Shown here piece by piece: positions 26,178 to 52,500 of a DNA stretch of 64,000 nt. The position numbers and the translations under genes were made by a program. Positions within the stretch are counted from its first letter, which is position 1; each line of letters opens with the position of its first letter. The stretch is from the NCBI RefSeq assembly GCF_905475395.1, contig NC_058337.1:103162368-103226367 (forward strand), given 5' to 3'. The notes beneath the pieces were generated by a model. The model worked only from the letters and a program-made list of their open reading frames with translations. It searched no databases and was not told the DNA's origin. Origin of the DNA: Chrysoperla carnea. Its lineage: Eukaryota; Arthropoda; Insecta; Neuroptera; Chrysopidae.

Positions 26178-29100
26178 ATGAATAAATTACAATTATTTAT
26201 AATAATATTTGTAATAAATGTAATAAAAATAACAAATGCTGGTAGATGTTTGGATGAAAATGGTATGTATAATATATATTAGTATAATTTAAGGTGGTTC
26301 CAGCATGATATAGTGTGTAGGCAGTTCATTTAATGAAATATTTTCGGTTACAATAAAATAGATAAAATAGTTATATCTTTTTTAAATTATAAAACATGTT
26401 TCTTTACGTTACTAGTTTTTTTAAATTCTAAATCGTACTCGTAAATTGCAAACTTTAGTAGGTATTATTTATTAGGTCTATGAAAATTAAAAAATTGATT
26501 TAATTCTGTTGAAAAGGGGGTTCACGCTAGAACTACCATAATAGATGAATTTTATTAATCAGGTTGTGAGATAAATTTAAAACGAATATTAATCACAATT
26601 TTGCGATCTTGCATTTTTTTATTTTATTATAAAAGGTATACTTCCCGCTCAAAATAGTTATAATTTAACTTATAAAAAAAGCAACAGTACTACAGATGCC
26701 AAAGTTGTAGTTTTTAACTTGTAGAATAAAAAGTTAATATGCTCAGTAAAAAGAAAAGACTGAAACGGAAAAATTTCCCTTATTTTCAAGAAAAAATACC
26801 TACCCCCTAAGACCATGATTCTTTACTAAATTTGGGTCCCTACTTCTCAGAGCAAAGCGAGCTAAGATTCTGAAGGAAGAAGCCAAGACTAAGGCAAAGG
26901 CCTGGTGAAGACTTTCTTCATATCTTGCCCACCTTTGTAGACATTGGAAGTGTAGATACTATATACAAGGTGGGCCATTTTAATCTATGCATCTGAATAT
27001 CTCGCCAGAGGCACCTCATGTTCCAGGGGGGCATCATGTTCTGAAATCAGATTGGACCTACTTCTTTGGGTTTCTTTTTTAGCCAATTTAGATCTTAAAC
27101 GGTAAGTGATAGAATAACACTTTCAATAAGAAATTTGATCTTCATAAAAAAACTAACAATTTCTGATCAAAACATTTTTTTCGAAAAACGTTAGCTTTCG
27201 GAGGAAATGCGACTTAAAAAAATATCATTATTGCATTTAATCGAATGAAATTTTAGGTCAAAGTCATGGACACAGGCGAATGTCCAGTATTGCCCTTGAC
27301 AACTTTTGGCCCTTGACAAATGCATTTTTCCGTAGTTAGCGTTAAGTTTTCTTTCGATTAAATGCAATAATGACATATTTTTTAGTTGCATTTCCTCCGA
27401 AAGCTAACGTTTTTTGAAAAAATATTCTAAGCATAAATTGTTAGTTGGTTTATGAGGATTAACTTTTTAATTTAAAGTGTTATTCTATCTTTTACCGATT
27501 AAGATCTAAATTGGCTAAAAAAGAAACCCGAAGTAGGTCCAATCTGATGTCAGAACATGATGTCCCCGATCAAACTCTACAATTTTTGTTGAGGTCATTT
27601 TTTAATAGGCGCTTCTGTCGAGATATTCAGATGCATAGATTAAAAAGGCCCACTCTGTATATTTGAAAGTCAAGTAACTTATTGCGAGCATAACGAACTC
27701 CAAATCCAAAGGCCTACTTGAGTTTCTCCTCTCTTTGTAAAGCTAAGTATAATAAAGTAATACCATATTTCGAGCGAAATGATTTTGATGCCCAAGATAA
27801 AAAAAAATCAAATCAAATAAAGTTGGAATTGCTCACTTTTAGCGAAGAGCATCGGTAACGGCTATTTATAAATTAAATTAGTTCAAGTTCAAAATTATTT
27901 ATTATTATCGTCAATTTACAAAACTAAAATACAATACATCTTAAAATCTATAGTGTCTAGCCTAAACTTAATCTATAATACATCATCTTATTAAATTAAG
28001 TACATCGAAATATAAATAAAATTAAATTCTGTTTCAGCTATAAATATAATGCATCCAAAATACACACATTATGAAAGTAAAACAATTAATTTAACATTAT
28101 CAACAACACATCGAATATCACATCAATTAACAACGCTGGCATTTAAAATAGTTTTAGAAGAAATATTAGGATATCAACATGTACAAATTGTTCACATAGA
28201 TGATAATTTATCATATAAAACTGTTGTTAAAAAAACAAAAACAGCTACGTAAGTTTTAATTTTTGATTTCATTCATGTTTATTTTTATGGGGTGTCTGTA
28301 AAAACCGTGTAATTTTCTTGGAAACCATTTTTTTTTTCTTGGAAACCAACAACCTTGGAAGTTAATGATGACTTTCGTTAGTTTCAATTTATTAAAATGA
28401 ATTTCAAACACGATTCACGGAAGTATTGCTAGCAAACTGGTGACTCCTGTTAAAGAAATAGTGTAGGATTTTAGTATTTTAGTTTACTACTTCAATCGTA
28501 AATTAAGAGTTATCTATCCGAAAAGATGCGTAATTGTTTGCACCTCTTTCGATCATATCTGAACAGGAAATGGTCAATAACTGGTGGTCTGGTGTCAAGA
28601 GAGGGGTTAATATACGTAACCTAATAATGTACGGACATCCAAGCTCATATTCCTACTCTATTGTCTGTTTTTGAGATCGCCTTTTTTTCCTGAACGTGTA
28701 ATCCTCATAGCAAACTTCTCCGTGACCATACTTCAATCCAGCAAGTGATTTTGACAAACCCATCATGATCATTGGATAATATGCTAGAGTAGAGATGGCG
28801 AACCAATGGCACGCGACAAAATATTTTAGGCACGCCACCAATCACAAAGTTTACTATGAATTATTATATTACGAACGAACGCGATCTTACGTTATAATGA
28901 TCTTACGAACAGGCGCTTGTTTGTTATTATAATTACATGGTGGACTACAATTGGAATTTTAAAACAAATCACAAATCCGTTAGTCAATAAAGCGAACCCG
29001 AGCAAAAGAAATTCATTGCTAGGGCAATGCAAGATAGAAATAAACAGTCGATGTCTATGATTAAATATGTTGATAAAAATTTTCATACGAGCGCTGCAAA

Positions 29101-32100
29101 TTTCATTGCTCGGCATAGTAAACCTTTTCAAGGGGGGCAGTTTTTGAAGGAAGTCTGATAAGCATGCGCGCCCTCACTTTTTGATGATTTCGATATTAAA
29201 GATAAGGTAATTCAGAGCAGCGAAATTTTCGAAACGTCTTGAGAATGCTCATAGCAGAAAGACCTTACTGTATTGTCTTTAGCCTCGAGAAAATCCTGTA
29301 TATTTCAAGAAGAGTATATAAAAGACTTATTAGATTTAAATTCTATGAACACCATTTTGGAATCCCTCATTACTTTTTTTCCTCCTGTGTCTTAGATAAC
29401 CACTATTCCCTATTTCAAATATCCTTAAAAAATTATTTAAAGACGTCATAGTTTATCGAAATTTAACCTTAATAACCTACATTTTCTTTTAGTGGTCCCA
29501 ATCCACCTAATTGGATGATCAATTTAGAAGTATGGATACCACCAAATGTACAAGTAACAAGCTTTTTGCAAGTGAAACATTTAAAAGATTATGGTAATAT
29601 TGGACTACCTGGTAGATTTGGTTGGTTTATACCCAAAAATAATATTAATAAGAACATAGGTGAAGATACGTTGAATGAAATACATTGGACTTTATTTGGA
29701 AATCAAAAAGAAGTAATAAAATATGATATCACTGACGAGCGTATCTTACATTTTTTAAAAGAAAACTCGCAAAAAGTATCTAAGTAAGTTTTTTTTTTTA
29801 GTATATTTTTGTTTTATTTAACCTTAGATTGTAAAATTATCAAAGATAATTTATGAGAACTCTGATATTTGAAATAAAATATTAAATTTGCCCCAATGCC
29901 TTAATCAATTTTTTGTATTATCAATATATATTTCTACTAGGGAGGAGTTTAAACTTTTGTTCCTCCCATGTTAGGTTGTAAAGTCAATAAAAACAAGAAC
30001 CTCGTTTTTCGAGTTAGAAAAAATTTTATTAAGTCAAAATATAACGCATTCAGTCATAATTTTTAATTATTTTTAAGTTAATTCTGCGTGGTACAGAAAA
30101 AACTTGTTCAAAATTCTGTGCACTTCGACCTCTACACCGTGATGAATATTGTGCATTCTAAACCATTTAGCCAATCTTTAGATATTGTCGAACTTTTCGA
30201 GTTTTGCAACATTGTCGAATACCGCAACTCTTGCCATGAAATTTAATAGTACCATATTTAGTTCAAACTTCTTGTTACTACAATCTTCCATTAAATTTTT
30301 TTTGCGAAAATGCAATCAAGCTTTGTGAAACACCAACAATTTGGTTGATTGCTGACGCCATATTGACAGTGCGTGAGTTTCAGCGACGAGAGGCAGAAAG
30401 TGGAACTAAATTTAAATGAATAGACTAGGAAAGTAGTTAAACGTTATCGATCCAAGTCATATATGCAGTTTTTGTTAATCAATCAAAAAATAACTTAAGT
30501 CAAAGCTGCGTTGAGTTTGATGAGGGACATCAGATTAGATCTAGTTTTCATGTTGCTTTAACAGTCAATTTAGATCCTAAAATGTAAGCGATAGAATGAC
30601 ACTTTAAATTAGAAAGTTGATCATCATAAAAAAACATCCATTTTTCCGAAAATCGTTTGCTTTAGAAGGAAATGTGATTAAATATGTCATTATTGCATTG
30701 AATCAAAAGAAAATACACGCTAGTTTTAAAAAAAATTTTTTAGATAAAAGTTATCAAGGATTATAAAGGCCATTCGCCTGTGTCAATAACTTTTAAGCCC
30801 AGGTTCATTTTCAAGATCAATTAAAGATCAAGGTCAAATGACCTTGAAACTAGAATTTCAGGTCAAAGTAATGGAATAGTCTCTCAAATTTCCAGCCGAT
30901 TTGAAATGACTCTCCAATATTACGCCTAACGCTAGCAAGGCGACAAATACTAATTTAATTTCTCATTTGATTTCAGCGTATCATTATGTGGTCCACAAAA
31001 ATGTATACACGACATGTTTACACCAAAACAATGTATCAATAACATATCATGTGCTTTATTGTTAGCACCTAAATATGAAGATACCTCATTTATTATCGAA
31101 CATATCAAAATGTTAAATTTATACGTAAAAGTAATGTGGTTTGATAACGAATTATATTCCATAACACATCGATTAATTAACGAATATAAATATGTGAATA
31201 ATAATTTATTAATTTTATATTACGTACCAAGTGAATTAATATATCCTCAACATAAATTCATTAACGTTATATTACCAACATGTAATACACTTAACGAATA
31301 CAAATCGTTATATATTTACGATAATAATTGTTATAAATATGAGTTACATCGTATTGCAAAATTAGGATGGGCTAATTTAGAAAAATCCGCACCAACAGTT
31401 GATTCAAGTTTACCAAAATTTATAATACCAATCGATGATTTACATTATTTATTTGAACAATATCGAACGGAACAAAATTTATCGAAAATTGCATGTAATT
31501 ATATGCGTGATGTTTATACTCAAGATATACATTCAATAAGTCAATTACGTACGAAAGATACCATCTATATTGGTGGAATATTTCCATTTAGTGGGAATTC
31601 AACAAGTTTAACAAAAACCGCATATGGTATCAAATATGCTGCAGAAATGGCGATTAATGCAATTAATAAATTAAATATTGTCAATGGTTATGAATTTCAA
31701 TTAATCTCACATAATGGACAATGTGAATCGAATCATGTGCTTAAAGCTTTTATTGAAATCATACAATATGTGAATTTATTAGGTATATTAGGACCAGCTT
31801 GTAGTGAAACAGTTGAACCTTTAGCGGGAATTTCAAATATTTATAATACATTAACCATATCATATAGTGCGGAAGGTGTTAGTTTTAAAGATCGTCAAAA
31901 ATATGCGCTATTTTTCCGTACAATTGGTGAAAATCAACATTATATTAATGTTTATACAAAACTATTTGAATATATGAAATGGAAACGAATTGTTTCACTT
32001 ACGGAAGATGGACATAAATATACGGAATATTTATCATTGTTAACATCGTTAACGGAGAATAAAAAATTTCCACGTATGATACATGATATTAATTTTGAAA

Positions 32101-34767
32101 AATTAAAGAAAATTTTATTCGATATTAAATCACAACAATATTTTATTATTATCTTAGATGTAAATGAAGTTTTAGCAAGAGCGATTATGTGTGAAGCATA
32201 TCATTTAAATATGACAAGTTCGAATAGTTATGTTTGGTTTCTACCAAATTGGTATTCGAACGATTGGTATAATACAACGTTATATAATTCAACAAGTAAT
32301 TGTACCGATTCTCAAATGTTGTATACGATTAATGGTTATTTTACGTTAGAACATGCATTTTTTGATGCAGACGATGCTAAACCAACAATATTCACAAATC
32401 GTACTAGTGTTAAAGATTGGGTTGAATATTATCATGCACAAGTTAAACGTAATAACATCACATATTCACATTATGCTGGCTATGCTTACGATGCAGTATG
32501 GACGTATGCGTTAGCGATACAACAATTATTAAACGATACACCAGATGCGATTGGTACGTTACATTCTGATCAAGTTACCAATAAATTAATTCATTATATA
32601 AAAAACATTGATTTTAATGGAATTAGTGGACGAATTAAATTCGATAGTGGAGGGTCAAGATATTCAATCATAAAAATTATCCAATGGTTTAATAAAACCG
32701 AAAATGAAATCGGTGAATTTATACCTGATTACAACGATATTAATGAATATAACGGGGAATTACATATAAATAAAAGTCAGATCAAATGGTTGAATCCAGC
32801 GAAACAAATACCAAACGATGGAACACTTTTGCTTAATAAAAATAAAGAAAAATGTATTGTAGAGAATTTTGCACGATATTTAAATGTTGCGTGTAATACT
32901 GCATTGATTATAATTAATATATTAGGATTTAGTACGTTAACAATATTGTTGGGTGTGATTATTTATATATTTAAACGGAAATATGAACATAAAGTTTTAC
33001 AACATCAAAAATTATTATCGTTAAAGTATGGTTTAGCAGCTGTCGATTTAGTACAATTGAATACGTTGGATAAATGGGAAATGTGTCGGGAAAATGTTGT
33101 TATTAATCGTCAACTTGGACATGGAGCATTTGGTACGGTGTATGGTGGAGAAGCATTCTTTCAAGATAAAGGTTAGTTTTCTTTAATTATTTATTTAATT
33201 TCCTGTAGTAGAAAATATTTTTTGAGTTAAGTTTTGTAAAACTTGGTTTAGGATAAAATAAAGGTCATATGATGATCGGTTCAATATTTGAACCTTGCGG
33301 AACTCCCAAGCTAACTAGAATAGGTTCACACTTAGTCAAGATGTTTTCAGTTTCCAAAAAAAAGTAATTAATTAATTTACAGGTTGGATGCCTGTAGCTG
33401 TTAAAACATTAAAAATTGGTTCAACCACTGAAGAAAAATTAGATTTTTTATCCGAAGCAAAGGTTATGAAAGATTTGGAACATAAGAATATCGTAAAATT
33501 ATTAGGTGTTTGTACACAAAACGAACCAGTTTATACGATCATGGAATTTATGTTATACGGTGATTTAAAAACCTACCTCCTAGGACGCAGACATCTGGTG
33601 AAACAACAAAATAATATGGTTCCAACGTATGATAACAATGAAATATCAAATAAAAAATTAACGCTAATGGCGTTGGATATTGCGTGTGCGTTAAGTTATT
33701 TAGCCGATATTAAATATGTGCATCGTGATGTGGCTTGTAGGAATTGTTTATTAAATTCTCACCGAATGGTGAAGTTGGGTGATTTCGGTATGACTCGTCC
33801 GATGTATGAGAATGATTACTACAAATTCAATAGACGTGGTATGTTACCGGTTCGATGGATGGCACCCGAAAGTTTAGGTTTAGGTATATTTACATCAGCA
33901 TCGGATGTATGGTCTTATGGGGTGTTGTTATATGAAATTATAACATTTGGTAGTTTTCCATTCCAAGGGAAAACTAATACTGAAGTATTGGAATATGTTA
34001 AGAATGGCAATACTTTAAATATACCTAAAGGGGTCAAACCACAATTGTAAGTATCATTCATTATAGAATTTATGTAAATAAGCACAATCAATAAACTAAT
34101 TAATTTGTTTACTGTTTACAGAGAAGCTTTAATGAAATCATGTTGGAATATCGATCCAAAAAGACGTCCGCAAGCATCACAAATCGTCGATTTCTTAGCA
34201 AATTCACCTCGTCTATTAGCACCATGTTTAGATGTACCATTATCATCTGTTGATATCACATACAATTATAATTCAACAAATATTGATCCAAATAATTTAC
34301 CATCATTACCATTACCAGAAACATTTCGTAAATGTTCAGTTGATGGATTTTTAATACCACCAGCTATACCTCCACCACCGCAACAACAGCAAACATCGCT
34401 ATCATCATTATCCTCATCATCGTCATCATCCACATTATCAAACATAACAAAATCAAATATACATCGTTTACGTCCAAGTCAAAAATTAATTATCAATAAC
34501 GAATTAAGGCTTAGACAACAACAACAACAATATTCTCCGTCAACAATTAGCACTTCATTGTTTGATATAAATAGTGATAATGATGATGAAGATAATGATG
34601 GTGATAGTGACGATAATGATAATGAAGATCAACAACAGAATGATAATCGTTATAACGATAATAATAATACAAATGTTGAATCAACATTATTATTAAATTT
34701 ATTATCAACAAACGCAAACAATAATAATTTATGTGATAATGGTAATTATAAAAATTCTATTTTATAG
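26178..34767 (+). CDS. VKR: Venus kinase receptor (VFT domain plus tyrosine kinase)
   Basis: Single-pass receptor tyrosine kinase of the plasma membrane. Coding exons: 26178-26262, 28038-28248, 29493-29783, 30977-33171, 33383-34046, 34122-34767; all joins are GT-AG and in phase, giving 1363 residues. Residues 1-21 are a hydrophobic signal peptide. Residues ~30-385 form an N-terminal module. Residues ~390-815 are a GABA-B-like Venus flytrap domain with IGGIFPFSG, GPACSE (Ser472 in the ligand-pocket position) and YVWFLPNWY. The membrane helix is ~836-861. The kinase spans ~900-1180: LGHGAFG loop at 909, VAVK Lys935, Glu952, HRDVACRN with Asp1043, DFG with Asp1061, insulin-receptor-like activation loop YENDYY (Tyr1069, 1073, 1074), then LPVRWMAPES. 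All catalytic residues are present. The tail (~1200-1363) has Gln, Ser and Asp/Asn runs. Known family: invertebrate VKRs respond to amino acids, and the mosquito member is the receptor for ovary ecdysteroidogenic hormone. Identity is near certain; the ligand here is inferred only. Confidence 0.95.
26289..26542. mobile_element. MITE in VKR intron 1, TTAAGGTGGTTC ends
   Basis: The left end TTTAAGGTGGTTCCAGCATG is mirrored at the right by GCTAGAACTACCATAAT. The termini resemble those of the elements at 38821 and 48926. Confidence 0.6.
26963..27660. mobile_element. foldback element family C, intact copy in VKR intron 1
   Basis: Ends ATACAAGGTGGGCC and GGCCCACTCTGTAT are complementary. Arms of about 290 bp mirror each other through AGCCAATTTAGATCTTAAAC, GTTAGCTTTCGGAGGAAATG and ATTATTGCATTTAATCGAA. 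The centre is about 100 bp with CTTGACAACTTTTGGCCCTT. No transposase is encoded; the minus ORF is incidental. Confidence 0.85.
28793..29330 (+). pseudogene. hAT-type transposase relic in VKR intron 2
   Basis: Starts with AACCAATGGCACGCGAC, a common lead-in of such elements, and has broken frames with N-F-I-A-R pieces. The clearest is NFHTSAANFIARHSKPFQGG then QFLKE and a stop, matching the domesticated and transposon hAT/GTF2I-like family (I-A-K-x-S-K-P-F-x-x-G-x-F-x-K-E). Multiple stops show it is dead. Confidence 0.6.
29784..30489. other. VKR intron 3, unassigned part
   Basis: A segment at 30090-30420 has codon-like texture in minus orientation but many stops; no family could be named. Confidence 0.35.
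30490..30860. mobile_element. partial family C foldback in VKR intron 3
   Basis: One arm and the centre: GGGACATCAGATTAGATCTA, GTCAATTTAGATCCTAAA, ATGTCATTATTGCATTGAAT and a CATTCGCCTGTGTC core. The second arm is missing. Confidence 0.7.
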
Positions 34768-39889: not shown

Positions 39890-39963
39890 TATTATGAGTG
39901 ACATTGTAAGCAAATACACGTGAAAATATTTATTTTATTTAATCTCAATAAATTATAAAAAAA

Positions 39964-42112
39964 ATGGGACACCAGAGTTGTTGTGTTGTGAATTGTAAAA
40001 ATACCGGCAGGAATAGTAAGTGCACATTTTATAAATTTCCGACCGTTCAATGGAAATTAAATCAACGGAATCTCTGGATAGCTGCAGTTAAAAGGTTAAA
40101 GTAAGTAGTACCATAACCCTGATTTATCAATAACAATAATTTGGAGAATTGTAAACCTTTCCAAAATTTGTAAGTTTAATAAAAATTAATAATTTTTTTG
40201 GAATTCTCTAATAAGGGAAAGCGAATTTATTAATGCTTAAAATGTAATAATAAGTATTATGATTAAAAAAAATGCAGCCGTACATATATTTAAAAATAAT
40301 TTACGTTAAAATTTTTTAATATGCTACATGCACATGCAATTTTTTTGTTTAGTGTTTACCATTTATTATATTATTCAAAAAATTTATTAATGTCTGCAAG
40401 ATATTCGTAAACACTTAAGTTTCAGTTATCTGAGTAAAAAAAATTCAATTTTGCAATCAATTCATTCACTAGTGTGCTAAGATTTAATAAACATGTATTT
40501 TTGTAGTGCTGATGGATCACCGTGGGTTCCCAAGTCATACGATTATATTTGTAGTGATCATTTTATTGGAGGTAAAAAATCAGAAGAGGAGTTAAGTCCT
40601 AGCTACATTCCAACTATATTTCCTTCAATTTACAAGCGTTCGAAAGTAAATGAATCTTCTGCTATTAACAGGTAAGAATTATATGGTAAAACTAGATCAA
40701 CGTCAATGACATGATAATAATAATTTTATATTTTCAGATTCAAGCGCGTAATGAATCGGCGGATGAAAAAAAAATTATCTTTAACATCAAATCCTGAGTG
40801 CAAAGCTAAAGAATCGATAGAAGTGGTGACTGAATTTTCCCAAGTTATGCCTTCAAAAATTGACCAAGAGTGTCAAGTAGACTTTTATTCAAGGTCTGAT
40901 GTACAATCTCAAACATTCATTTGTAATCGTTTTGTCAAAGACGATATGTGTCATGCTGAAACCCAAACAGAAAGCAATTCGTATTGTAATGTAAACAATA
41001 CGGTGTTTATCAAAGAAGAACCTGTAGAAATTGATGATCAAGATTTTACTGTCAAAGTAGAATGTGTAGTTACTGAAGAAAAACAACCATTATTATTTAA
41101 GGACATAAACATCAAATTAGAACAGCCAGAACATACAGAACTGATAATAAAGGATGAAATCTCTGATAAAACAATAGTATTTGAACAGGTACATTGTGGA
41201 GAAAAACAACCGATAATAAAGGATGAAATCCCTGATAAAACAGTAGTACCTGAACAGATACATTCTGGAGAAAAACCTTATTCTTGTGACGTTTGTGACA
41301 AAAAATATACCACAAAACAAAGATTGATTGAACATAAAGCAGTTCATACGGGAGAAAAACCGCATGTTTGTGATATTTGTGATAAAAAATTCATATATAA
41401 AACTAGTTTACGTGGGCATAAAAAAATTCATTCTGGGGAAAAACCTTTTGCTTGCGATGTTTGTGATAAAAAATTTATAATCAAACAAAATTTAACTCTC
41501 CATAAATTAACTCATACCGGTGACAAACCATATGCTTGTGATGCTTGTGACAAAAAATTTGCACGGAAAACTTATCTTCATGAACATGAAAAAATTCATA
41601 CCGGGGAAAAACCATATGTTTGTGATATTTGTGATAAAACATTTGCACAGCGAAGTAATTTGCATGGACATAAAAAATTTCATATTATAGAAAAACCATA
41701 TACTTGTGATATTTGTGAAAAAAAATTTGCACATAAAAGTTATTTTGACGAACATCGTAAAATTCATACCGGGGAAAAAGCATATACGTGTGATATTTGT
41801 AATAAAAAATTTGCACAGAAAAATAATTTTCGTGAACATAAAAAAATTCATACTGAAGAAACTCCTTATGCTTGTGACCTTTGTGATAAAAAATTTAAAG
41901 TAAAACGTACCTTGAATGATCATAAAAGAGTTCACACTGAAGAAAAACCCTTTGCTTGTGATGTTTGTAATAAAAAATTTAGACTGAAACGTACCTTGAT
42001 TGATCATCAAAGAGTTCATACTGGAGAAAAACCTTATGCTTGTGATGCTTGTGACAAAAAATTTGCACAAAAAAGTAATTTGATGGTACATAAAAAATCA
42101 CACTCATTTTAA
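39964..42112 (+). CDS. THAP-domain protein with ten C2H2 zinc fingers
   Basis: Probable sequence-specific DNA-binding nuclear protein. Exons 39964-40100, 40507-40671 and 40738-42112 join in phase with GT-AG borders, giving 558 residues. Residues 1-~93 are a C2CH THAP domain: Cys6 and Cys11 near the N-terminus, a conserved Trp in LWIAAVKRL, Cys-x2-His in YICSDHF, and a YIPTIFPS end equal to the family AVPTIF box. Exons 1 and 2 split the THAP domain. Residues ~106-280 are an acidic linker with five psi-K-x-E sites (near 193, 207, 227, 239, 262), an ETQTE motif near 175 and a tandem 23-residue duplication. Residues 284-556 are ten C2H2 fingers at a strict 28-residue period with TGEKPY-type linkers. 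THAP domains derive from P-element transposases; many insect genes fuse them to fingers. Target sequence is unknown. A large antisense ORF across the fingers is a shadow. Confidence 0.92.
41142..41279 (+). repeat. 69-bp tandem duplication in the linker of the THAP zinc-finger gene
   Basis: Two adjacent 69-bp units encode IIKDEISDKT... and IIKDEIPDKT..., each ending HxGEK before the next unit or the first real finger. The second unit runs into finger 1, so this looks like a duplicated finger linker plus a SUMO-type site. The frame is kept. Confidence 0.8.
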
Positions 42113-46515: not shown

Positions 46516-49500
46516 TCATAAAAATGGATTCTTTGAGAATGTTGGTGCCCCAGCTGTACTAGCAGCACTAGCAGTTGTATTATAATTCGACATCATCATT
46601 GTTGAATTTAATTGTTGCTGTTTAAATGGATTGATTGTATTAAATAATGATAGATCATTATTATTTTGTTGTAATTGACTAGCGTTGATTTGTGTTGATC
46701 TAAATGGATTTATATATTGTTCGGATGGTGATGCTGATTTATTATTTGTTAAAAACATCCCTTGCGCTGATGGTGGAGTTAACATTGTTGTTTGTGTTGT
46801 ATTAAATGGATTCCAGATATTACCATTACCATTACCTGAAAAAAAAAGAGTCTGAGTAATTATAAAAACTTAACAAAAATTAAGTGATTACTTCCATAAG
46901 AATTTACTTCCTTATGAGAAAAATTTTTATTCTCGTATCACAAATTTTTAAACTCTTTTTCTCTGCACTCTTTTTGAAGTTATACTTCTTTAGACGCTTT
47001 ATGAAAAAATGATGAGTGAATTTTTATGTTGCGACACGAAAACTACATGTTGAAGTTAGTAACAACACCATGCAGTTAGTCGATAAAGGAAGAAGGATGT
47101 CACTCACAATAAACAAAGACAGATAGATGACAGATTAAGTGTCATCTAAAGAAGTATAACTTCTTACGTGCGTACATATGTACACACATCCTTTTTTTAA
47201 ATTCAAATTAGTTATTAATTCCAAAAAAAATTTACATACCATTATTAAAATGATTGAATCCATTATTACCAGTCGTAGCTGGTGAACCTCCATATGAACT
47301 AATGGACGATGACATAGCTGGTGATCCAATACCAATACTATTATTAACATTTCCAATCCAATCAGCTATGTGTTGTTGTTGCTGTTGTTGGGTTTTTAAG
47401 GCTATATCTAAATCTTTCAATGCTGCATATCGATCTTCCGATGGTGTTGCATTTGTTTGTAGTTGTTTACTATTTGCTAATTGATGAGTTAATTTTGATT
47501 GTATTTGGGGTCGTATTGTTGCTGAATTATTGTTAATATTAGAGCCATTACCTACAAATTGAAATAATTGTTTAAAAAATGTTATTTAAAATATTAGTTC
47601 AGAATTAATTGGAGCAAAATTGAAACAGAAATTTTAATGGTAAATTTGTAATTAAAATGATCCATATCTGACTCCTCCTAAAGCAATTTTCTCAATTATA
47701 TGAAGGAAAAGCTTAATTACCAGAAGAAATGCCACAAAGAGAAGAGCCGTCCATGTAATTATTTTCAACTATCAAAGCAAGTTTTTCAAACGCAAAAAAT
47801 CATGTAGTTGAAATTTAATATATCTAGTCAATTATTTCGAGGGCGGATTTAAAATATCGATTAACTACGCAAAACCGGTATTATAAACCGCCCACTAAAT
47901 AAATCACATTGATTTTTAATCAACCATCTATAAAAAATCAGCCAAACGTCGATTTAATAAGTAAAAATTATGTAATTTTAAGATTAAATCGTCAAATTTA
48001 ACAGAAAAAAATATTAATTCTAAAGTGAACTTGAAGTCAATAAAGATACACAGAATCTTTAAGCGGGCTTTCTTGATATATAAAAACTCATAGACATTGT
48101 ACACAAAAATTATGCTCTAAAATCTAATTCTCACAAAAGTATTTGTAAGAAATCGTTTGAATCTACTTCTTAACCGATTAAAAAATTCCTTCGCCTATAG
48201 AATTTTACATTGTCTGCAAATAAAATGGTCTGTATTCTGTTTTCTAAAAAATTAAAATCAAGGAAAGAGGGCACAAGTGTAGGCAAAGTTAGTGAAACTA
48301 TCTTCTAGTCAAAACATTCATTGCTCATGAAAAAGAAAGAGATTTAAACTAGAGATCCTGCATTCCGTTCCCAAGATTTAAGATTCGTTAGTTTCGTAAA
48401 TAACGGGTTGGAGACATGGGTTCAGCTTTTGGAAAGGAGCAGGTAAACCAGAATTTTTGGTCTGGATTAAAAATTGCCAATTAATTCTAAAACAAGTAAT
48501 ATTCCAAGAAATGGGGTAGTTGCTTTTTTCAGCCCCCGCGATATACCCATGGTTGGGGAAATTTTCTTTTAGCTATACCCCCTCCTCAAAACAGAATTCG
48601 TTTATTTAAATTATTCGTCCGTGGTTGAGTCACATAATTCTGGATATGTACTCTAATCTCTGTCTTGAAATTGATCAAATTTGAAGTATAAACTGGTGCC
48701 TCCAAATAAATGGATAGAAATTAAACGGCGCAAGCGCATATTTAATAATATACTTCGTATGAAATCGTAACTAATTTCTTTTCGTACATTGGTTTCATTT
48801 AGTTCCTAGCCACTTTTTCTGGGGCACTGGGAATGCTTCAATAGTAAACACTTAAATTTATTTGACGCCATATAGATCCTTTATCCAGTTATATAGAAAT
48901 CAGTGATATGTACCAAATTTCAATTTAAGGTAGTTCCTCCGCGACAGTCCAGTCAAAAAGTTTTGGACTAATACTATCATTCAGCGCATTAACTGTGCTA
49001 TGACTGTACCATATATTTTTTTCACAAGACTGTACTTCCTCCACTACTATATCCCCTATACGTATACACACACACTATGAAATATAACTCTGTATGGAAA
49101 TGTGGCAACGTCGCATTATTCTTATTATTATTTATCCTATACCTATACATGTACATATTTCCTTTTGTACCGACATTTGCTTGTGACAACGTTGCCACAT
49201 CGTTTCCATACCACTAGTCTTTATATCCCCTCCACAAAAAATCATCGCTAAAACGAGTTATTTATTTAAGTTTTTTATCGAAACTATATGGTAAATAATT
49301 TTTATTTTTTTTTAATATTTTCTAAATATAGTATTCTACATTATATTAGATTTTCATAGAGATGGTGAACGTCATTCATTGATAAATAAATAAAAATTTG
49401 TCATTTTCCCACGCTTCTCCCATGCTACGGGCACGTACACGTACAAATTGCGTCACTTTTAATTGCTAATATCTCATGTATGACATGGTAAATCATCTTC

Positions 49501-52500
49501 TAATTTTAACAGCATGTGTATTATGAATTAAATATTTTATATTCTGAGTTTTGAGAAATTCTTGGAATATCACTTTCGTGGAAGTACTACCTTAATGCCT
49601 CTTTTAGATTGAGAGAAAATAGGAATGACACAGAGGTTAGACACGAAAGTAATACTGTGGAGGTTCCGTTTTTTTGCATCAGATGTACGGAACTTTAAAA
49701 TACTAACAATTTCTTTTTATCAATAGCAAGTTTAAACAAAAATTACTGAGAGCGCTCTTTTATTGACGTGAACATAAGCTTATTAAAAATAATAAACAAG
49801 AAAAATTTTCAAGTTTTTTGCCCTTGGTTCTATTATTATAATACTTATTTACTACTTACTTGCTGAATTATTTATAAATATTGGATTATTATCAAAATTA
49901 GCAAATGACGCTTGTTGTTGCGGCTGCTGCTGTTGAACAAAACCATTTTTATTTGTCGATTTATTTAATGGTTCAGCAATAAATATATCAGCTTTACTAA
50001 AATCAGCTACAAAATCATCCGTACTACTTTTATTATTCTTTAATTGTTCATTATTATTGTTACTAAATTTATTATTATTATTATTATTTGTTGTGGTAGA
50101 TTGTTTTTTATTATTTGTTTGTAAATTTGTAACTAATTTTGGATCAACATAATAACGTTTACGTTCATATTTTTGTATCATAAAATCTTTAATATCTTGT
50201 TCATCGTTTGATTCCGTTAAAACGTTTCCTTCAAATAGCTGTAACCATACTTGTTTACAATAATCATTGCCGCGTTCATGTAAATATTCCATTTCTTCTG
50301 TTGTAAATGTTGCCATTGACATTGATTTTACACGATGTGGTGGTGTTAAACCGCGTCTAAAATTTAAAATCATTTTATAATTATGTTTAGAAATGCGCAA
50401 TTTTAATTGTTATATGATATTAATAGATGTAGGGCAAGACATAATATTTAGAAATTTTCGACATTCTTTGTCTAGAAAATTGTGGCATAGGGAGATTTAT
50501 CTTCCAGCGAGGTCAAAAAATTCAGTCTAGTCGCAAAATAGTCAAAATCGAGCCCCGTTTAGAAAAAAAATGGCGAATGGTTTAAAGTTTTCTTTTCTGA
50601 GAGGTTATTTTGTGCGCTTATCACAATCTTTTGGATCATTTTGCTCCTAAAGGTGAGGAAAAAAAGATATGGCCATTTTTACGAATACATTTTTTCGAAT
50701 AGGAAGTTTTCTCTAAAATTAATATATATAAAGCGAAAAAGAGCGGATTTTATGTTGTTTCACTTCGATATTTTGTTTTTTTATTATCGCCACTTCCCTC
50801 GCCAAAATCAACCAATTCCGAAAAATCGTAAGATTGAATTTTTAGGCCGAAAAATGCAATTATTAAAAAAAACAAAATACTCCTTGAAGATTTAGGTCAA
50901 TATAACCTAAAAATACTATCCATTCTAATTTTGGTCAATACTCCGACTTTTGAGTCAATTTAGAAAAATTCGGGCCTCGAAAAATTGGTAAATTTTTTAG
51001 GTTAGAAATCTTTAAGGTTGGCCAAATTTTGCACTTTGTTAGAGTAGGCCACAGCCCAACCTTTACCGTAGGTAGGTTGGTTTACTTTAACTCATATAGA
51101 ATCGGAGATATTGATCAATACAATAGGTTTGGGCCGACCCGGGGACCAATTTTGGGCCAAAGGAAAAAAATAAAATAGTGAGTATTATAATTTTTAATTG
51201 AAAACGTTTTCAAAATGATTATTGCTCTGGGCACTAGCTCCACCTGCCCATAGTATAGATTTAGCGCTGGAGGAAACAGTTTCTAGATACAACCATGACA
51301 ACAGTCTCTCAAATTTGCAACCATCTAGAAATGACTGTCAAATAGTACGCCTGGCCCGAGATTTAAAAATACGCTTCTTTTAATTTTAATTATATATCAA
51401 AGTGTATGATTTTATTAATGACCTTTGTACTTGAACTATGCATATATTTTAATATGTATACAGTGTGATCATAAATTGTTTTATTAAAAATTGGAAAATT
51501 ATTTTAAGTCAAAATTGCTTTATATACTTTTGTCCAAAACCCACAGATTAAGGAAGTATGTGCACCAGACCTAACTCTTCATGGCTATTATCTTTGGGGA
51601 CACATGAAAAATGTAGTATATTAAAATAAACCACAAAACACGATAACTCAAAACAAAAAAAAGAAATCGATTTTTATAGCGTGCTCAGGACGTGAAACGT
51701 GAGGTTGAGTTCGTAAATGAGCAATACAGGTCAAGGTCTAGGGGCCGTAAGACTCATCTTGTAAAGCGTTAGAGATAGAACAATAGTTTAAATGTAAAAA
51801 ATGTTCTTTATAAAAAAATAAACAACTTTTGTTGAAACATTTTTTCGTAAACAGTCTAGCTTATATGTTGCGTTGTCTAACGTATGTATGTGTTATACAC
51901 ACACAGTCACGATTCGGTTTAAAATTTTATAAAAACCAAAACAAAACAAATAAAAATGGTCGAAAGTCCGCCATAATTGTGTTTTTTAAACTATTCTAAT
52001 TTATTAAAAATATTACAAGTACTGACATTCAACAATTTCTATACAGGGTATTTCAACAATTAACTCAGTTAATTGTTTGTTTTCGCTTGTTTATAATAAC
52101 TATTAGACGTAAAATCAATTATTAACAAATTTTCTCATTTTTCCAACTCAACTCCTCTATCTCTTTATAAACACACTGTATATTTGTATTTTTAATAGTA
52201 CAGTAAAAAAAAGAATTTTTTCGGAATAATTGATTCAGATAACTTTAAAAGCTTTTAATTTTTAAAAGTTATAAAATCGACTTATCTTATTAAACTTGTT
52301 TTTTAAAAAATTAGAAAAAAACCCAAAGTTATCAATTTATGTAGAAAAGAAAAAAAAACAATTCCTAAAATTTCAAATATACAAAAAAAAAAAAAAAAAA
52401 AAAAAATACAAAAACAATACGCAAAAATTATTTATCTGTTTCTTTGAACGTAATTTCTTCAAACATAATGAACTTGAGTAAAAAAATTGATCTGCGACGA

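Follow-up and report, generated by a model that had tools for sequence, protein, structure and literature searches.

An OpuAC-like lobe ahead of the flytrap of a Chrysoperla carnea Venus kinase receptor, and its probable place in a second clamshell

The DNA considered here is a stretch of 64,000 nucleotides of Chrysoperla carnea, called the window in what follows (G000:C1:103162368-103226367 of a 559-Mb genome); it contains one Venus kinase receptor (VKR) gene, which lies on the + strand, has six predicted exons at 26178-34767 and codes for 1,363 aa. The receptor probably comprises two serial clamshells, namely a divergent domain of the OpuAC/ProX type (type II) and, after it, the known type-I Venus flytrap. 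Profile comparisons establish, as far as amino acid sequence can tell, that lobe 1 of the outer domain, with its N- and C-terminal segments, is homologous to bacterial OpuAC-family proteins; the cysteine-rich middle would fold as lobe 2, and a second clamshell before the flytrap is likely. Published VKRs (Ahier 2009, PMC2680970; Vanderstraete 2013, PMC3703292) have the same ANF-type flytrap, single transmembrane helix and insulin-receptor-like tyrosine kinase, but in those descriptions, unlike here, no OpuAC-like lobe 1 is recognised before the flytrap.

An OpuAC/ProX-like domain in this position had been proposed in an earlier note on the same DNA, on the basis of a series of motifs. These are found in frame and in the order given there, in exons 2 and 3 and the first part of exon 4, and they are followed, as that note also held, by a complete type-I flytrap and then by a tyrosine kinase (Table 1). 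Its proposal is partly supported and right in kind: lobe 1 withstood the profile searches and their controls, whereas lobe 2 did no better than shuffled sequence. The note had missed predicted exon 1 and the segment of residues 314-378, the latter being among the two best pieces of evidence.

Homology of lobe 1 with bacterial OpuAC-family proteins

About 370 residues separate the signal peptide from the type-I flytrap, and residues 22-391 contain eight cysteines (24, 200, 205, 215, 221, 298, 314 and 369) and five N-glycosylation sequons. The chain of type-II binding proteins contributes its N-terminal and C-terminal segments to lobe 1 and the part between them to lobe 2. In a block test with 19 proteins and 1,000 shuffles per block, residues 41-150 scored 671 against 471 ± 25 and residues 314-378 scored 482 against 388 ± 21, none of the shuffles being as good in either case; given the composition of lobe 1 just described, the two blocks would represent its two halves. 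Elements of the LEEILGY, WxP and GWFIP types, and a C-terminal block around SAPTVDSSLPKFIIPIDDL, occur in the same order in the OpuAC/ProX/ChoX-type proteins (PF04069).

Four mixed profiles of the bacterial OpuAC family were built, from 13 proteins (E. coli ProX and plasmid-borne relatives), 20, 98 (including 79 genome-contig loci, from the best 80 of 467 relatives) and 110; a mistranslated fragment of 134 residues, L019, sits in the 20-protein profile and in the methylamine-type one considered below, and was omitted from later ones. With the four profiles, in this order, the N-terminal region scored 13.7, 17.1, 19.9 and 17.9 bits, corresponding to single-comparison E-values of 1.3e-6, 1.2e-7, 1.7e-8 and 7.1e-8, and hhalign returned P values of 9.5e-6, 4.6e-6, 1.9e-5 and 6.7e-6. 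Lobe 1 alone was aligned by hhalign with the 13- and 20-protein profiles, and the whole domain with those of 98 and 110 proteins, from residue 22 or 20 to 341 or 340 as numbered from the second-exon Met; against an 11-protein OpuAC alignment, P was 9.3e-6 (N-terminal lobe-1 block). Exons 2, 3 and 4 match the 98-protein profile colinearly, at its positions 30-74, 80-126 and 204-277, the first two giving 9.5 and 5.0 bits when taken alone.

Neither full shuffles nor shuffles in blocks of 20 ever reached the real score, in 5,000 trials of each kind for every one of the four mixed profiles, and the best of 200 shuffles in hhalign with the 98-protein profile attained 27.2 against a real value of 42.6, none coming near it. 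The window has 131 stop-to-stop open reading frames (ORFs) of 60 aa or more, and exons 2, 3 and 4 took the first three ranks among them with each mixed profile; the receptor's own flytrap and kinase had no match to the OpuAC profiles. As foreign proteins, ORFs of 150 aa or longer were taken, 130 of them from E. coli and 1,213 from the bacterial loci; the top-scoring ORF in each of 117 loci was counted, by score, as a family member. In this comparison the VKR region obtained 17.5, 20.4 and 18.3 bits with the 20-, 98- and 110-protein profiles, and every ORF above it was either the top one of an OpuAC locus or among six further OpuAC-like ORFs (at least 119 bits, counted as second OpuAC-like genes on score alone); once these six are excluded, the best of the 1,226 other ORFs reached about 5 bits.

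Kinship with NMT1 (PF09084), a sister type-II family, was examined with a profile of 30 proteins and rejected, as the region scored -2.0 bits, 451 of 5,000 shuffles were as good and the hhalign P was 0.31; exon 2 alone had 1.9 bits with this profile, and the NMT1 proteins had at most 6.8 bits with the OpuAC profile. A length of about 370 aa would also fit a decayed second type-I flytrap, duplicated from the known one; however, the region does not resemble the flytrap of the receptor itself (hhalign P 0.53) and ANF_receptor matches the second domain only, which makes such an origin very hard to credit.

Lobe 2, the ligand cage and the case against a complete clamshell

A number of results weigh against an OpuAC-type clamshell in this receptor, and they concern the region as a whole as well as its middle. 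The N-terminal region does not reach the curated cut-off of PF04069 and has no match to it in Pfam at E up to 10, an absence that the earlier note had counted towards refutation; at that threshold residues 22-391 gave chance matches only (0.14 and 0.16, and 0.23 and 0.063 for smaller pieces), E. coli ProX being recovered as positive control at 1.6e-52. NCBIfam yielded nothing for the region, and none of the single bacterial proteins compared with it was convincing pairwise (best L005, phmmer E 0.001). The profile of the methylamine-plasmid subfamily is weak, with 4.0 bits, a score reached by 9 and 10 of 5,000 shuffles, and an hhalign P of 0.0044. Nineteen proteins made up a further, partly independent profile, with which the region had just 7.9 bits (E 8.2e-5, hhalign P 2.3e-4), reached by 2 and 1 of 5,000 shuffles; they were picked by Pfam score, 25 loci providing 22 ORFs from which three shorter than 200 aa were removed, and, judged by position, five of the 19 are genes that the 98-protein profile also contains, while seven were left out of the 110-protein one. 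With neither of these two profiles were the three exons all among the top three ORFs of the window, and the one ORF above the region with the 19-protein profile was exon 2 itself. Finally, the case is built on one VKR sequence: no other was found in the genome collections searched, which are prokaryotic, and searches of viral contigs for relatives of the VKR exons were unproductive.

The resemblance might then be due to chance or composition, the N-terminal region being a VKR-specific domain with an unrelated fold, as could be argued from the lack of a match in Pfam, NCBIfam and the chain sequences of the PDB, from absolute scores below 21 bits and from the weakness of two of the six profiles. 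This is rather improbable in view of the shuffle, block-shuffle, ORF-rank, foreign-protein and sister-family controls, and of the colinearity across three exons.

The middle of the region is where the comparison fails. Residues 241-300, which contain NNLLILYYVPSEL and FINVILP, scored 369 against 383 ± 26 in the block test, with 690 of 1,000 shuffles as good; sub-profiles of lobe 2 from the 19- and 110-protein sets returned no hit for the real sequence, and a methylamine-type lobe-2 profile gave -1.6 bits for residues 181-310, including CGPQKC, a value matched by 1,857 of 5,000 shuffles. The three motifs named here had been offered as evidence of OpuAC kinship, and at this level they do not count as such. 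Six of the eight cysteines lie between the flanking motifs, where there are 178 residues; four bacterial proteins have 112, 139, 140 and 148 there.

The binding site was also compared. ProX holds glycine betaine between tryptophans that adjoin cis-prolines, Trp65 and Trp188 (PMC8601584). In the receptor, Trp65-T-P aligns opposite W113 and the I-P after it. Within lobe 2, where the alignment is unreliable, Y278-V-P280 lies opposite Trp188-T-P and K204 opposite Trp140, the third cage tryptophan of ProX. On this alignment only one of the three cage tryptophans, at W113, is kept as Trp, which is a further point on the opposing side; with Y278 and K204 at the other two positions, the betaine-type cage would not be intact as known, and the ligand, if there is any, cannot be named.

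These observations bear on the possibility that OpuAC descent is limited to lobe 1 and that the middle is an unrelated cysteine-rich insert, so that the product would be a one-lobed module for scaffolding or dimerisation, unable to clamp a ligand. The contrast between the lobe-1 blocks and the lobe-2 block speaks for such an arrangement, as do the 30-66 residues by which the inter-motif stretch exceeds the four bacterial proteins and its share of the cysteines; on the other hand, a lobe can diverge past recognition by sequence, and the tentative alignment places an aromatic-x-Pro, Y278-V-P280, at the ProX W188-T-P. A one-lobed module is considered unlikely, and the two-clamshell receptor, with a divergent lobe 2, remains the preferred reading. 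In sum, compared with OpuAC proteins, the VKR region is below Pfam detection, is fused to a receptor kinase, has an unrecognisable lobe 2, longer than in the four compared, and, on the unreliable lobe-2 alignment, is without two of the three cage tryptophans.

Possible working of the receptor and its relation to known systems

The two-clamshell receptor would have the OpuAC/ProX-type domain (residues ~40-378) at its outer tip, then the type-I flytrap (~392-800), a single membrane helix and the kinase, and would otherwise be a typical VKR. By inspection against PMC3703292, the Ser and Arg positions of the VKR flytrap for amino-acid binding are kept, as Ser472 (GPACSETVEP) and in FFRTIG, and the kinase has the motifs GHGAFGTV, VAVK, HRDVACRN, DFG, YY and RWMAPE, as in the VKRs of PMC2680970. 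L-arginine binds the type-I flytrap of VKRs and activates the dimeric kinase (PMC4026697, PMC4038586), activation having been published for the bee, mosquito and Schistosoma receptors; in the same way, closure of the present type-I flytrap on an amino acid would bring together the kinases of the dimer. The outer domain could be a regulatory module in series, setting the position or the affinity of the flytrap, and might act either through closure around a second small ligand or as the docking site of a peptide hormone. As to its role, a non-binding spacer, or a part in dimerisation, is quite conceivable; the binding of a solute is possible, if somewhat less to be expected, and the docking of a peptide or partner is doubtful. 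A peptide hormone was reportedly linked to the mosquito VKR by Vogel in 2015.

The flytrap is preceded by several exons in many VKR genes (PMC3703292, Table 2). The conserved flytrap serine, numbered 66 in the alignment of flytraps (PMC3703292), is Ser466 in SmVKR1 and Ser410 in SmVKR2 (PMC4038586) and Ser505 in Anopheles AgVKR (PMC6401105), compared with Ser472 here, and these residue numbers imply about 340-440 residues before the flytrap in the Schistosoma and mosquito receptors. It could be imagined that all VKRs have two clamps, the outer one being ancient, OpuAC-derived and provided with its own ligand, and that both clamps are needed for full kinase activity, but so general a scheme is held to be doubtful. 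One VKR paper says explicitly that VKRs were found to have no further known domain, and in the VKR papers cited here the single flytrap is regarded as the sensor.

In the fungus Allomyces macrogynus, six G protein-coupled receptors (GPCRs) of the Glutamate family (class C) carry Pfam OpuAC domains (PMC3251606); such domains, therefore, do occur in eukaryotic surface receptors. As in the VKR, the OpuAC-type domain is found in the N-terminus; however, the Allomyces proteins are fungal GPCRs without a tyrosine kinase, and their domain is detected by Pfam/RPS-BLAST. No receptor kinase with an OpuAC domain is described in any of the literature matches listed, a coverage that leaves out database annotations and most subscription papers. 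Type-I and type-II binding-protein domains are also combined in one receptor in the NMDA-type ionotropic glutamate receptors, as they would be here; there, however, type I comes before type II, and the type-II domain is of another family and split by the channel.

Egg production depends on VKRs in a mosquito and in schistosomes, and the receptors have been put forward as drug targets (PMC5601475, PMC4026697). A second domain derived from a binding protein would provide a concrete site for another ligand or hormone, and would exemplify a solute-binding module of bacterial type within a receptor kinase of an animal; a VKR with two working clamps would be a coincidence detector for a nutrient and a second solute or hormone.

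Gene model and other features of the window

Exons 2 to 6 were set by reading of splice sites, which are GT/AG and with fitting phases. Exon 1 comes from an upstream scan for an ATG, a hydrophobic stretch and a donor of the right phase, which returned three rows and two distinct exons; the better candidate, listed in Table 1, joins in frame.

Table 1. Coordinates, in the window, of the predicted VKR gene and of the parts of its product
Feature	Position	Strand	Remarks
Predicted exon 1	26178..26262	+	signal peptide MNKLQLFIIIFVINVIKITNA, then GRCLDEN; phase 1 into exon 2; crude scan
Exon 2	28038..28248	+	from 28073, first half of the OpuAC-like lobe-1 block (INLTLSTTHRISHQLTTLAFKIVLEEILGYQHVQIV); splice sites
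Exon 3	29493..29783	+	29493-29646 is the second half of the lobe-1 block; LEVWIPP, GRFGWFIPK
W113 codon	29533-29535	+	within LEVWIPP, exon 3
Lobe-2 region, whole	from 29647		residues ~151-312
Exon 4	30977..33171	+	lobe-2 region, C-terminal OpuAC-like block, type-I flytrap, transmembrane helix, kinase start
Lobe-2 region, main part	30977..31325	+	unrecognised; of the N-terminal region's 8 cysteines, 5 are here
C-terminal OpuAC-like block	31329..31523	+	residues 314-378 (CYKYELHRIAKLGWANLEKSAPTVDSSLPKFIIPIDDLHYLFEQYRTEQNLSKIACNYM...); HMMER second domain, 8.8 bits (98-protein profile)
Type-I Venus flytrap (ANF_receptor/GABA-B-like)	31563..32790	+	Pfam PF01094, 4.9e-46; domain ends approximate
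Transmembrane helix	32898..32972	+	TALIIINILGFSTLTILLGVIIYIF; by inspection
Tyrosine kinase domain	33099..34196	+	exons 4 (to 33171), 5 and 6 (from 34122); Pfam PF07714, 2.6e-88
Exon 5	33383..34046	+	kinase; splice sites
Exon 6	34122..34767	+	kinase end and low-complexity Ser/Asn/Asp/Gln-rich tail; stop TAG

The tail that follows the kinase is of low complexity at 34350-34740, with runs of Ser, Gln, Asn and Asp (SDNDDEDNDGDSDDNDNEDQQQNDN). A search of the insect's own genome found no second copy of the flytrap exon, the single match to the flytrap part being a weak one of 26 bits and 24% identity at C1:54229615-54229878 (L022), perhaps another receptor of the ANF/GABA-B type. Exon 3 matched only itself in the same genome, where PF04069 had 0 matches.

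The intron after the signal-peptide exon contains, at 26961-27662, long imperfect inverted repeats with arms of 56-127 nt that are 83-90% complementary, which look like a foldback or MITE-like element; a 48-nt piece related to them (81%) lies at 30746-30793, in the intron before exon 4. Downstream of the receptor gene, a THAP domain (PF05485, 1.2e-5) is encoded at 39952-40104 and is followed, at 40724-42112, by an ORF of 462 aa with C2H2 zinc fingers, the fingers being arranged as tandem repeats of 84/252 bp. On the minus strand, an exon coding for an ArfGap domain (PF01412, 9.8e-10) is located at 49852-50409, with Asn/Gln-rich ORFs at 46516-46869 and 47232-47585 as neighbours; it resembles AGFG/Drongo.

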